Shown here: positions 48,117-50,982 of the stretch, piece by piece
Layout of the letters: the number at the start of each line of letters is the position of its first letter
Position numbering within the stretch: the stretch's first letter is position 1
From: Mycolicibacterium porcinum
Lineage (GTDB): Bacteria > Actinomycetota > Actinomycetes > Mycobacteriales > Mycobacteriaceae
Assembly (NCBI GenBank): GCA_002086835.1
Contig: MVIG01000023.1
Span: 22,076 to 86,075, forward strand
DNA length: 64,000 nt
Reading direction: 5' to 3'
Program-made: the position numbers and the translations under genes
The notes under the pieces: generated by a model
Seen by the model: the letters and a program-made list of their open reading frames with translations, nothing else
What the model was told of the DNA's origin: nothing
The model's database searches: none

Positions 48117-48150
48117 TAATGAATGCGCTCATTAATGAACGTACTCATTA
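48117..48150 (-). promoter_or_regulatory. Tandem TetR operators, TAATGA-N6-TCATTA twice
   Basis: Two 18-base sites with the same arms (48117-48134 and 48133-48150) overlap by two bases and begin 12 bases upstream of tetR. Identical arms with different spacers argue for a selected binding sequence. Confidence 0.72.
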
Positions 48151-48240
48151 ACCGCGGACGGTGTCAACCGGGGGCGGCAAATAAACTCATCTCGATTTCA
48201 GACCTTCACCCCGCCCCCGGGCACCGGTAGCAATACCCGG

Positions 48241-48276
48241 GTGAACGGAACGCTGCCCGGTTGCTGTCGTCGCTGA
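48241..48276 (+). CDS. Candidate 11-residue Cys-Cys leader peptide
   Basis: A short frame GTG-to-TGA encodes VNGTLPGCCRR and ends 45 bases before the ABC permease start. A weak TAGCAA box lies seven bases before the GTG, so it could be translated leaderless. Leaderless short ORFs with cysteine runs that act as cysteine-responsive attenuators upstream of sulfur genes are known in mycobacteria. The two adjacent Cys codons (48262-48267) and the downstream sulfonate-type importer fit that role. This is an inference; translation is not shown. Confidence 0.55.
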   Translation: MNGTLPGCCRR

Positions 48277-48306
48277 AGCCAATCGACACCCCCTGCCTTC
48301 AGCAAC
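48260..48306 (+). promoter_or_regulatory. Mutually exclusive stems in the leader of the sulfonate operon
   Basis: GTTGCTG (48260-48266, over the Cys codons) can pair with CAGCAAC (48300-48306). GCTGAAG (48272-48278, over the leader stop) can pair with CTTCAGC (48297-48303). Both use the same 3' segment, so only one can form at a time; a ribosome stalled at the Cys codons would block the first. A further ACAGA/TCTGT pair (48305-48309 with 48325-48329) encloses the permease GTG. Confidence 0.5.
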
Positions 48307-48321
48307 AGAAAGCTGCCCACA

Positions 48322-49185
48322 GTGTCTGTGTTCGTCGACATCGTTCCCTCCGAGGCTGAAGCCGGCCCGCCGCGTCCTGCCGCACCGGCCAACCGATGGC
48401 GTGCGCTGCTCACCCGCTCGGCATTGCCGTTGCTGTCGGTCGTGGTGTTCTTCGCGGTGTGGCAGGCCGTGGCCTGGGCCGGCATCTGGAATCAGACGTT
48501 CGTGCCCTACCCGTCGACTGTCTGGCGCGCGTTCATCGATGTCTCCACCACCCATGACGGGGCCCGCGGATACGCGGGATACCTGCTCTACGAGCACCTC
48601 TACATGACGTTGCGCCGGGTGCTGGCCGGTGTCGTCATCGGCGTGGTGGTCGGCGTCGGACTCGGCCTGCTGATGGGGTCGGTCGGCTGGCTGCGCAGCG
48701 TGCTCGAGCCGTGGCTGACGTTCCTGCGCGCCCTGCCGCCGTTAGCCTACTTCTTCCTGCTGGTGATCTGGCTCGGCATCGACGAAGCGCCCAAGATCAC
48801 GCTGCTCGCCCTGGCCGCACTGCCGCCGGCGGCAGTGGCCACCACCGCAGCCGTCGTCGCCGCACCGGTCGGGCTGCAGGAAGCGGCCCGGGCTCTGGGA
48901 GCCACCCGCGCCCAGGTGATCCGAGACGTCGTGGTGCCGTCGGCGCTGCCGGAGACCTTCACCGGTATCCGGCTCGCGGTGGGCATGGCGTACTCGTCGG
49001 TGGTGGCTGCCGAACTGTTCAACGGCATCCCCGGGATCGGCGGATTGGTCAAGGACGCAAGCAATTACAACAACACACCGGTCGTGCTGGTCGGGATCTT
49101 CGCCATCGGGATCTCGGGTCTGGTGATCGACGGAGGTTTGCGGGCCGTCGAGCGACGGGCCGTTCCATGGAGAGGGAAGATATGA
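48322..49185 (+). CDS. ABC transporter permease, sulfonate/taurine type (SsuC/TauC-like)
   Basis: The 287-residue protein has six membrane helices and the binding-protein-dependent permease motif around EAARALGATRAQVIRDVVVPSALPETFTGIRLAVGMAY, which contacts the ATPase. The family (SsuC, TauC) imports alkanesulfonates, taurine or nitrate-like anions. It starts with GTG and a weak ribosome site, 45 bases after a candidate Cys leader peptide, and overlaps the binding-protein gene by four bases (ATGA). Confidence 0.88.
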   Translation: MSVFVDIVPSEAEAGPPRPAAPANRWRALLTRSALPLLSVVVFFAVWQAVAWAGIWNQTFVPYPSTVWRAFIDVSTTHDGARGYAGYLLYEHLYMTLRRVLAGVVIGVVVGVGLGLLMGSVGWLRSVLEPWLTFLRALPPLAYFFLLVIWLGIDEAPKITLLALAALPPAAVATTAAVVAAPVGLQEAARALGATRAQVIRDVVVPSALPETFTGIRLAVGMAYSSVVAAELFNGIPGIGGLVKDASNYNNTPVVLVGIFAIGISGLVIDGGLRAVERRAVPWRGKI

Positions 49186-50213
49186 GAGTCAAGAAGCTGC
49201 TCGCCGTGCTGGCTGCCGCGACGGTGGCACTGGCCGGGTGCGCGGTGGACCACTCCGGACAGAGCTCCGAGAAGCCCACCATTCGCATTGGCTACCAGTC
49301 TTTCCCGAGCGGGGATCTGATCGTCAAGAACAACAAGTGGCTCGAAGAGGCACTGCCCGACTACAACATCAAGTGGACCAAGTTCGACTCCGGGGCCGAC
49401 GTGAACACCGCGTTCATCGCCAAGGAGCTGGACTTCGGCGCCCTGGGTTCGAGCCCGGTGGCCCGCGGTTTGTCGGCCCCGCTGAACATTCCGTACCAGG
49501 TGGCGTTCGTGCTCGACGTCGCCGGTGACAACGAGGCCCTGGTGGCCCGGGACGGCGCCGGGGTCAACTCGATCGCCGACCTGCGCGGCAAGCGCGTCGC
49601 CACGCCGTTCGCCTCCACCGCGCACTACAGCCTGCTGGCCGCACTGGCGCAGAACGGCTTGTCGCCCAGCGACGTTCAGCTGATCGACCTGCAGCCGCAA
49701 GCCATCCTGGCGGCCTGGGAGCGCGGCGACATCGCGGCGGCCTACAGCTGGCTGCCCACCCTGGACCAGTTGCGCAAGACCGGCAAGGATCTGATCACCA
49801 GCAGGCAGCTGGCCAAGGACGGAAAGCCGACGCTGGATCTGGCCGCCGTGTCCGACGACTTCTCCACCGCTCACCCCGAGGTCGTCGACATCTGGCGCCA
49901 GCAGCAGGCCCGTGCGCTGAACGTGATCAAGAACGACCCGCAGGCCGCAGCCAAGGCGATCGCCGCCGAGGTCGGGCTGAGCCCCGAAGATGTTGCGGGA
50001 CAGTTGAAGCAGGGGGTCTACCTGACACCGGCCGAGGTGGCCTCGCCCGAGTGGCTGGGCACCGACGGCGCGCCGGGCAACATCGCGGCCAATCTGCAGA
50101 GTGCGTCGCAGTTCCTGGCTGATCAGAAGCAGATCCCCGAGGCAGCACCGCTGCAGGTCTTCAAGGACGCCATCTACACGAAGGGATTGCCGGATGTCAT
50201 CGCCAAGCAGTGA
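49182..50213 (+). CDS. ABC transporter substrate-binding lipoprotein (SsuA/TauA-like)
   Basis: The 343-residue lipoprotein has a signal sequence with lipobox LAGC (Cys about residue 20) and a periplasmic-binding fold of the SsuA/TauA/NMT1 type: IRIGYQSFPSGDLIV, NTAFIAKELDFGALGSSPVARGL, LRGKRVATPFASTAHYSLLAAL and ERGDIAAAYSWLP. It captures the substrate outside the membrane. GGAGAGGGAAGAT precedes ATG 49182. It overlaps the ATPase gene by 20 bases. Confidence 0.9.
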   Translation: MRVKKLLAVLAAATVALAGCAVDHSGQSSEKPTIRIGYQSFPSGDLIVKNNKWLEEALPDYNIKWTKFDSGADVNTAFIAKELDFGALGSSPVARGLSAPLNIPYQVAFVLDVAGDNEALVARDGAGVNSIADLRGKRVATPFASTAHYSLLAALAQNGLSPSDVQLIDLQPQAILAAWERGDIAAAYSWLPTLDQLRKTGKDLITSRQLAKDGKPTLDLAAVSDDFSTAHPEVVDIWRQQQARALNVIKNDPQAAAKAIAAEVGLSPEDVAGQLKQGVYLTPAEVASPEWLGTDGAPGNIAANLQSASQFLADQKQIPEAAPLQVFKDAIYTKGLPDVIAKQ

Positions 50214-50982
50214 CGCGCCCGGCGGGCTGAAGATCAAGAACGTCGCACACCGTTACGGGCGCGGTTCGGATGAGGTGACCGCGCTCGGACCACTGGATCT
50301 ACAGGTCGAGCCCGGCTCGTTCCTGGTCTTGGTGGGGGCGTCCGGGTGCGGCAAGAGCACCCTGCTGCGTCTGATCGCCGGGTTCGAAACCCCTTCCGAG
50401 GGTGAGGTTCACGTGGCAGGGACGCCGCCGACGCCCGGGGTGACCTCGGGCGTGGTGTTCCAGCAGCCGCGACTGTTCCCGTGGCGCACCGTCGGCGGCA
50501 ACGTGGATCTGGCGCTCAAGTACGCCAAGGTGCCGCGCGAGCGCAGAGCTGAGCGGCGTGAGGAACTGCTGGAGCGCGTCGGGCTGGAAGGTACGGCCAA
50601 GCGCAAGATCTGGGAGATCAGCGGCGGGCAACAGCAGCGCGTGGCGATCGCGCGGGCGCTGGCTGCCGAGACTCCGCTGTTCCTGTTGGATGAGCCGTTC
50701 GCGGCGCTGGATGCGTTGACCCGTGAGCGGTTGCAGGAGGATGTCCGGCAGGTGAGTGCGGAGTCCGGTCGCACAACGGTTTTCGTGACGCACAGTGCCG
50801 ATGAGGCCGCGTTCCTCGGTTCACGGATCGTGGTGCTGACCCGCCGCCCGGGCAAGATCGCGCTGGATCTGCCGGTGGAACTACCACGCACCGGAGTCGA
50901 CGCGCACGAGCTGCGCCGTTCGCCGGAGTACCTCAAGTTGCGCACGGATGTCAGCGAGGCCGTGAAACTTGCCGCCGCATAA
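50194..50982 (+). CDS. ABC transporter ATPase (SsuB/TauB-like)
   Basis: The 262-residue protein has Walker A GASGCGKST, Q-loop VVFQQPRLFPWRTV, signature ISGGQQQRV, Walker B LFLLDEPFAALD and the switch His in VFVTHSADEAAFL. The FPWRTVxxNV segment is typical of the nitrate/sulfonate/taurine group. It starts inside the end of the binding-protein gene and closes the importer operon. Confidence 0.93.
   Translation: MSSPSSDAPGGLKIKNVAHRYGRGSDEVTALGPLDLQVEPGSFLVLVGASGCGKSTLLRLIAGFETPSEGEVHVAGTPPTPGVTSGVVFQQPRLFPWRTVGGNVDLALKYAKVPRERRAERREELLERVGLEGTAKRKIWEISGGQQQRVAIARALAAETPLFLLDEPFAALDALTRERLQEDVRQVSAESGRTTVFVTHSADEAAFLGSRIVVLTRRPGKIALDLPVELPRTGVDAHELRRSPEYLKLRTDVSEAVKLAAA

Follow-up and report, generated by a model that had tools for sequence, protein, structure and literature searches.

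The stretch of 64,000 nucleotides analysed here (the window) carries, 5' of a gene for a TauC/SsuC-like permease starting at 48322, a frame of 11 codons that reads VNGTLPGCCRR. The question raised by this locus is whether so small a frame, with two adjacent Cys codons close to its end, could make the synthesis of an importer depend on the supply of cysteine. A preliminary description had noted the frame ending in GCCRR and likened it to the polycysteine leaderless short ORFs of mycobacteria. The frame is base-exact at 48241-48276 (Table 1), and the likeness holds in that a conserved Cys leader peptide is found. The leader very probably adds one more case to a type of switch described before in mycobacteria, that of the polycysteine leaderless attenuators. 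We consider it probable that the leader acts as a cysteine-responsive translational attenuator of a taurine/sulfonate-type importer.

The leader precedes three genes that encode the permease, the substrate-binding protein and the ATPase of an ABC importer. For all three proteins the best NCBIfam models are those of taurine importer components, at scores below cut-off, and none of the three reaches the cut-off of its own TauABC equivalog. The importer had been described as sulfonate-type; it is indeed of the sulfonate/taurine type, but by model score it is closer to TauABC than to SsuABC, under the curated cut-offs. A gene for a TetR-type regulator lies upstream of the leader in divergent orientation. 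At the start of that gene, two imperfect inverted repeats, AATGAATGCGCTCATT and AATGAACGTACTCATT, are found at 48118-48151, and they are present at L011 as well; these repeats are perhaps the operator of the TetR-type gene. In Rhodococcus qingshengii IGTS8, TauA and TauB were more abundant on dibenzothiophene than on sulfate, as stated in an excerpt of PMC8557817. This abundance fits sulfur control of such operons, the two proteins possibly being those of the operon at our locus L150.

Table 1. Features of the leader region and of the importer operon in the window.
Feature	Position	Strand	Description
Upstream promoter element TAAA.TC....GAtt.cAg.CCTT	48180..48210	+	61 to 31 nt before leader start
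-10-like box GGTAGCAAT (consensus GGTANNAAT)	48226..48234	+	6 nt before leader start codon
Leader ORF VNGTLPGCCRR	48241..48276	+	GTG start 48241-48243, TGA stop 48274-48276
Predicted hairpin 5' strand	48259..48267	+	Cys-Cys codons and last two bases of Gly codon region; from folds and pair probabilities
Adjacent Cys codons, proposed stall site	48262..48267	+	TGC 48262-48264, TGT 48265-48267
Inner stem 5' arm GCTGAAG	48272..48278	+	Over leader stop codon
Inner stem 3' arm CTTCAGC	48297..48303	+	
AACAGAAAGC	48304..48313	+	Presumed Shine-Dalgarno AGAAAG (48307-48312) of permease, and flank complementary to Cys codons
TauC/SsuC-like ABC permease	48322..49185	+	PF00528; NCBIfam PRK10160 TauC 179.9 bits, cut-off 342
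TauA/SsuA-like substrate-binding protein	49182..50213	+	TIGR01729 taurine 221.8 bits, cut-off 304.25
TauB/SsuB-like ATPase	50194..50982	+	PRK11248 taurine 217.2 bits, cut-off 357

Relatives of the permease were collected in order to follow the leader across species. A search of 401 genomes of the family gave matches at E 1e-70 or better in 75 of them, at 76 places. The locus set was made up of 70 of these places (30 including the window's own, plus 40) and of 80 of the 152 relatives from a scan of named genomes, 150 in all. L122 was dropped for having too little upstream DNA, and the remaining 149 loci were reduced to 135 distinct ones by merging exact copies and keeping near copies. Among these 135 permease loci, the window's included, 62 have a short Cys leader, with L055 doubtful among them, 15 have a long leader of the RRLAVDLCR...CC type, and 58 have no leader by the detector used, with L024, L100 and L109 resembling decayed or altered leaders. 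For the analysis of the peptides, 69 leader-bearing loci were thinned to 52 at less than 95% identity, with the leader start assigned manually in 11 cases. Adjacent Cys codons occur in 47 of these 52 non-redundant leaders, under a rule that required a Cys, and TGC is used 61 times and TGT 54 times.

A second count was blind to cysteine. In the 133 distinct loci with at least 200 nt of upstream DNA, the box GGTANNAAT was searched for with at most one mismatch and a start codon 5-7 nt later, and frames of up to 40 codons ending before the permease were kept, some long leaders being included. All 55 frames found contain Cys, and 51 contain adjacent Cys. The 137 Cys among the 727 codons of these frames lie mostly 2-4 codons from the stop. 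Two extra frames that overrun the permease start (L024, L056) are without Cys, and in seven of the 133 loci the box directly precedes the permease start. When box, start and a short frame with adjacent Cys near its end were combined into one detector, 44 (at most one mismatch) or 50 (at most two) of the 133 permease upstream regions were recognized, against 0 or 3 matches, respectively, in 1,162,660 nt of flanking DNA with both strands counted. Judged by these sequence comparisons, the Cys leader is conserved and far from chance. A chance short frame combined with chance complementarity might account for stems that, in the window alone, are marginal relative to shuffles, but given that 44 to 50 of 133 loci are recognized and the 1.16 Mb of background yield 0 to 3 matches, its probability is close to nil.

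Some loci depart from the common arrangement. The decayed leader of L024, which starts 43 nt before the permease, has kept its start and first codons (VNATLPAD...), while the Cys codons and the spacer are gone and the frame overruns the permease start. At L118, L124, L135 and L143, which belong to Mycobacteroides and a related strain, the leader frame (e.g., VPSTPSADSCCRLTPSRSA) continues past the Cys codons and is closed by a TAG located 21 nt upstream of the permease start. A ribosome at that stop would be close to the permease start, and the coupling is perhaps different there.

The position of the leader relative to its promoter is also conserved. The distance from the -10-like box to the start codon is 5-7 nt in relatives, and no match to the sigma-70 consensus was found in 48130-48480. 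It follows from the promoter spacing that the leader is probably leaderless, with a transcript that begins at or beside GTG 48241. Farther upstream, a position matrix built from 48 leader-bearing loci has information peaks at -59..-54, -46 and -36/-35, and the corresponding element at 48180-48210 is perhaps an activator site for sulfur control. In other species the element reads CTCGCGCTGAGCGCAG..TTC. It is present with or without a leader, at the same distance before the start codon. Its occurrence at loci without a leader could mean that control is transcriptional only, through this conserved upstream element, and that the leader is a remnant. A remnant would decay, however, as seemingly happened in L024, whereas the leader codons and the potential to form a hairpin have been kept in many species, which makes this explanation very improbable.

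In the attenuator that we favor, the RNA of the leader would mask the permease start region. The hexamer AGAAAG is taken by us to be the Shine-Dalgarno sequence of the permease, being complementary to 16S rRNA, and AACAGAAAGC, of which it is a part, is conserved in three alignments of relatives (A1-A3). The leader of the window is predicted to fold by pairing of the segment 48259-48267, and thus of the Cys codons, with the Shine-Dalgarno region, and of GCTGAAG with CTTCAGC. The pair probabilities amount to 0.46 pairs per nt between the Shine-Dalgarno sequence and the Gly-Cys-Cys codons and to 0.94 between the permease start codon and the leader's own beginning; the fold has z values of -1.98 (105 nt), -0.85 (78 nt), and -2.09 (69 nt). 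The two seven-base stems described earlier both exist, each with 7 of 7 pairs. Stem A, over the Cys codons, joins GTTGCTG (48260-48266) with CAGCAAC (48300-48306), and stem B, over the leader stop, corresponds to the inner stem of Table 1. The third stem that had been drawn around the permease start is present as well, with CACAG at 48318-48322 and CTGTG at 48326-48330 surrounding the GTG at 48322, but it is not conserved, being absent from relatives such as L013 and L020. Among 200 shuffles of the window's spacer, an equally good stop-codon stem appeared in 4% and an equally good Cys-codon stem in 7%. The stems of one species are thus unconvincing alone, and conservation carries the case.

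The helix is often clearer in relatives than in the window. Among eight of the 52 leaders that were folded, L099 pairs its Asp-Phe-Cys-Cys codons with the Shine-Dalgarno region (z -3.9), and z values of -4.1 and -3.5 were obtained for L146 and L087, respectively. A search for the best stem gave variants of stem B: GCTGAGG/CCTCAGC in L104, GCTGACC/GGTCAGC in L099, GCTGACG/CGTCAGC in L102, and GCTGAAC/GTTCAGC in L097 and L087. A level of 5% or less against shuffled spacers was reached by stem B in 16 of 48 loci, and by stem A in 5. When 43 sequences were aligned with plain MAFFT, 76.1% of the cells of stem B were paired (72.4% after shuffling, with 0 of 500 shuffles as high), and slid partners pair in at most 41%. 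Of the 41-42 sequences, 36 to 40 form each pair of its core GCTG/CAGC, whereas 13 to 23 of 42 do not form its outer pairs, and RNAalifold, applied to a subset of 23 sequences, returned the 4-bp core only. Stem A pairs in 61.5% of cells (shuffled 59.7%, with 47 of 500 as high), and each of its four outer pairs is found in 11 to 20 of 40-41 sequences. In L014, L087, L099, and L104 the 3' arm seems to have been misaligned by MAFFT, which would lead to an undercount of pairing.

Compensatory changes in both stems had been proposed as a check, and formal covariation is modest. The covariation score of stem B was reached by 3 of 500 shuffles, yet its two-sided changes, in 2 of 7 pairs, are no more than in shuffles (mean 2.4), and stem A is barely above the shuffled level. 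A different kind of association was found in 46 of the 52 leaders. Where an Asp codon stands at most two codons before the first Cys, GTC follows two purines somewhere within the 16 nt before the permease start, next to the Shine-Dalgarno sequence, in 24 of 28 leaders, vs. 5 of 18 without Asp. Such an association is what would be expected if these codons form the masking strand, in counts of a kind that relatedness inflates. When the 3' regions were swapped among loci, the duplex was weakened (own -10.31, swapped -9.13; 1 and 5 of 5000 in the permuted tests). Of the two control windows of this test, one passed too (4 of 5000) and the other gave 365 of 5000, so that shared ancestry inflates the duplex test and probably the Asp count too.

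These folds do not support a switch in which the two stems compete for one 3' segment and a stalled ribosome decides which of them forms, as the preliminary description had it. In L014, L087, L099, and L104 each stem has a 3' segment of its own, so that both can form at once, and stem A is far from universal; the competing-stem switch was therefore rejected as a general mechanism. What survives of the folding proposal is a predicted occlusion of the permease start region by the leader RNA. If the footprint of a ribosome is assumed to reach 12 nt beyond the first base of the A-site codon, a ribosome at the Cys codons would cover the 5' arm of stem A wholly, and of the 7 bases of stem B it would cover 3 to 6. 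The expected effect is thus a weakening of the hairpin as a whole, not an exchange of one stem for the other.

The effect of such a ribosome was modelled as the cost of opening the region -17 to +5 around the permease start, for 48 of the 52 loci (the spacer being too short in four). The mean cost decreases from 14.4 to 8.3 kcal/mol with a ribosome at the first Cys. This relief is larger than the mean for shuffled spacers in 43 of the 48 loci and not above it in 5, and in 20 loci at most 5% of 60 shuffles are as good. In the window the relief is a modest 2.4 kcal/mol (13.3 to 10.9), and a fraction of 0.08 (about 5) of 60 shuffled spacers are as good. The opening cost there is 8.4 with the ribosome at the stop, 7.8 one codon before the first Cys, and 10.9 at the Cys codons. 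With the ribosome placed at the stop codon, the relief across loci is similar, at 7.9 kcal/mol, and it already sets in several codons before the Cys. Since it is not sharply dependent on the position of the ribosome, specificity must come from dwell time. According to the model, the permease site is thus opened when a ribosome dwells in the late part of the leader, and the conserved codons suggest that the dwelling would take place at Cys.

The predicted exposure of the permease site by ribosomes at the stop codon, which in the window exceeds that by ribosomes at Cys, is also what one would expect if the leader only delivered ribosomes to the permease, by a leaderless start followed by reinitiation or coupling, the Cys codons being incidental. 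The promoter spacing, which supports a leaderless start, is compatible with this idea. Nevertheless, it leaves aside the occurrence of Cys in 55 of 55 box-anchored leaders, and in 42 of the 52 non-redundant leaders the end lies 39-55 nt before the permease start, so that stop and start do not overlap. We hold simple delivery of ribosomes to be quite improbable.

For cysteine-responsive attenuation, the following course of events may be envisaged. Transcription would start at or beside the leader GTG. When cysteine is plentiful, ribosomes would finish the leader fast and depart, and the leader RNA would fold into a hairpin composed of the inner stem over the leader stop (GCTGAAG/CTTCAGC) and of an outer, imperfect helix between the Cys codons and the permease Shine-Dalgarno region. 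The importer is predicted to be poorly translated once the hairpin has formed. When cysteine is scarce, a ribosome would wait at TGC TGT and hide the 5' strand of the hairpin, the Shine-Dalgarno sequence would be freed, and the importer would be made.

Control at the level of transcript elongation has to be weighed against this translational model. A scan with a simple consensus for intrinsic terminators (hairpin and U run) gave no terminator-like site in 48130-48480, and a classical transcription attenuator was rejected for that reason. Similarly, a riboswitch or other Rfam RNA was discarded, as there is no Rfam match at the gathering score in the window and none up to E 1 in 48130-48480. Attenuation by Rho is another option: a leader finished early would free the C-rich stretch before the permease for Rho, and a stalled ribosome would mask that stretch. 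In the fold, most of the C-rich loop at 48279-48296 is left unpaired, the lack of a detected intrinsic terminator goes in the same direction, and Rho has been suggested for mycobacterial cys leaders from polyY motifs, a prediction called rather weak in the consulted part of its source (PMC1262725). However, the feature that rises above shuffled controls is the masking of the permease start region, which Rho does not need, and the spacer of 45 nt from leader stop to permease start is short; a role of Rho is thus unlikely.

The loci without a leader bear on the history of translational attenuation in this family. A 75-nt matrix derived from 48 leader-bearing loci, with the leader start as its anchor, was moved across 45 of the 58 leader-free loci, and its best position was the permease start in 42 of these 45 tests. 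In Mycobacterium-type loci the best position was 0 or +1 of the permease start in 20 of 22, the exceptions being L024 (-43) and L109 (-75), and in those of one other genus it was within 1 nt of the permease start in 22 of 23, with L039 as the exception. The scores are mostly low, from 1.3 to 20.7 in the 20 Mycobacterium-type loci except for L132 (43.9), compared with a mean of 33.1 for the training loci; L132 has the box GGTACCAAT 5 nt before the permease GTG. An 18-nt core matrix alone anchors at the permease start in only 2 of the 22 Mycobacterium-type and 9 of the 23 other-genus loci, indicating that the result depends on the upstream element and its spacing.

On a quick tree of 134 permeases, the short-leader label changes at least eight times, and three of these changes are forced by well-supported branches. 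The alignment of the promoter element on the permease start in leader-free loci suggests, as the simplest reading of these sequences, that the leader was lost repeatedly and that the permease was left with a leaderless mRNA, gain being a less simple possibility. A broader proposition, for which we would put the chances at about even, is that the leader is a detachable cysteine gauge. One promoter would serve the start codon of the leader or, where the leader has been lost, that of the permease, and lineages would have switched repeatedly between a cysteine-gated Shine-Dalgarno sequence and ungated leaderless translation, with the Asp-x-Cys-Cys (or similar) codons as the masking strand.

The same genome also has a classic leader of the Ms5788A type, VSARLELVLTKRRAVDLCRVAGCCCCCCC, which scores 51.7 bits with NF042933 (cut-off 45). 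It is located at L188 1480-1690 (contig C26 of G000), ends with seven Cys, and precedes an apparent small membrane protein gene and one more gene. Its Cys run pairs with ACAACAACAG at the next Shine-Dalgarno sequence in a predicted fold with z -4.4. By analogy, the window's leader would follow the same logic with fewer codons. In a search of the genome with model R1, the window's locus scored 67.1 bits (E 5e-18), and the next of 37 places 17.2 bits (E 0.018); among six weaker R1 places and L195, none was judged to be a further short leader. A frame of 29-30 codons ending in ACCR at L203 was rejected, as on our reading it overlaps an acyl-CoA synthetase-like gene in a different frame. The filter found no Cys leader at L002-L008, seven of the 17 paralogous permease places in the genome. 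The pattern TGYTGYCGNTGA has 120 matches in the genome vs. 22 for a reversed control; in 30 of these 120 loci that were scanned, the sole frame to pass, VCSRRCTGCRPEC at L180, was judged unconvincing.

Polycysteine leaders reportedly act, according to the work of Canestrari in 2020, by masking of the ribosome-binding site that a stalled ribosome relieves, at six loci. Like these attenuators, the window's leader is a short frame that presumably opens an operon mRNA, with a C-terminal Cys cluster and a putatively sulfur-related operon downstream. It differs from them in its 11 codons and two Cys, in having no RRxAVDLCR core, and perhaps in preceding a sulfonate/taurine-type importer. Conserved Cys-rich small ORFs on leaderless mRNAs have been proposed as attenuators at cysA2, Rv0485, and nirA, the loci named in the excerpted text (Shell 2015, PMC4633059). 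Polycysteine ORFs were reported to be cysteine-responsive attenuators (Canestrari 2020, as cited in passages of PMC13236596 and PMC9094748), and their mode of control is termed translation attenuation in a passage of PMC13236596.

The long leaders of relatives provide a link to these families. One of them, before an orthologous permease (L034/L035), matches the Ms5788A family NF042933 with 30.3 bits (E 2.4e-7), and two match the putative leader peptide NF042934 with 16.8 and 17.8 bits, the cut-offs of the two models (45 and 27 bits, respectively) not being reached by the long leaders of relatives. The window's leader is absent among the matches listed in the genome searches with both models, and its 11 residues are too short for the scan. 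Cys leader peptides have also been predicted upstream of cbs in B. longum and of cys operons in Mycobacterium and P. acnes, as described in the portion of PMC1262725 consulted. According to this portion they likewise are short frames in which consecutive Cys codons stand close to the stop, but they are found at other operons, no conserved terminator hairpin was found, and Rho was suggested. A leader before metNIQ of S. lividans, annotated as a methionine leader, has three Cys in its last ten residues (Table 4 in the excerpt of PMC8079986), and it may read cysteine. A Cys leader at a sulfonate or taurine importer was not found among the papers listed in our literature searches, and absence from print is not claimed.

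If the proposed mechanism is correct, the uptake of organic sulfur, as taurine or other sulfonates, would come under the same ribosome-read cysteine signal as other mycobacterial sulfur genes. This signal would be read through a very small leader, of 11 codons with two Cys. The relatives with and without the leader would then represent a natural experiment, both on the benefit of the leader and on the change of a gene from leadered to leaderless translation.
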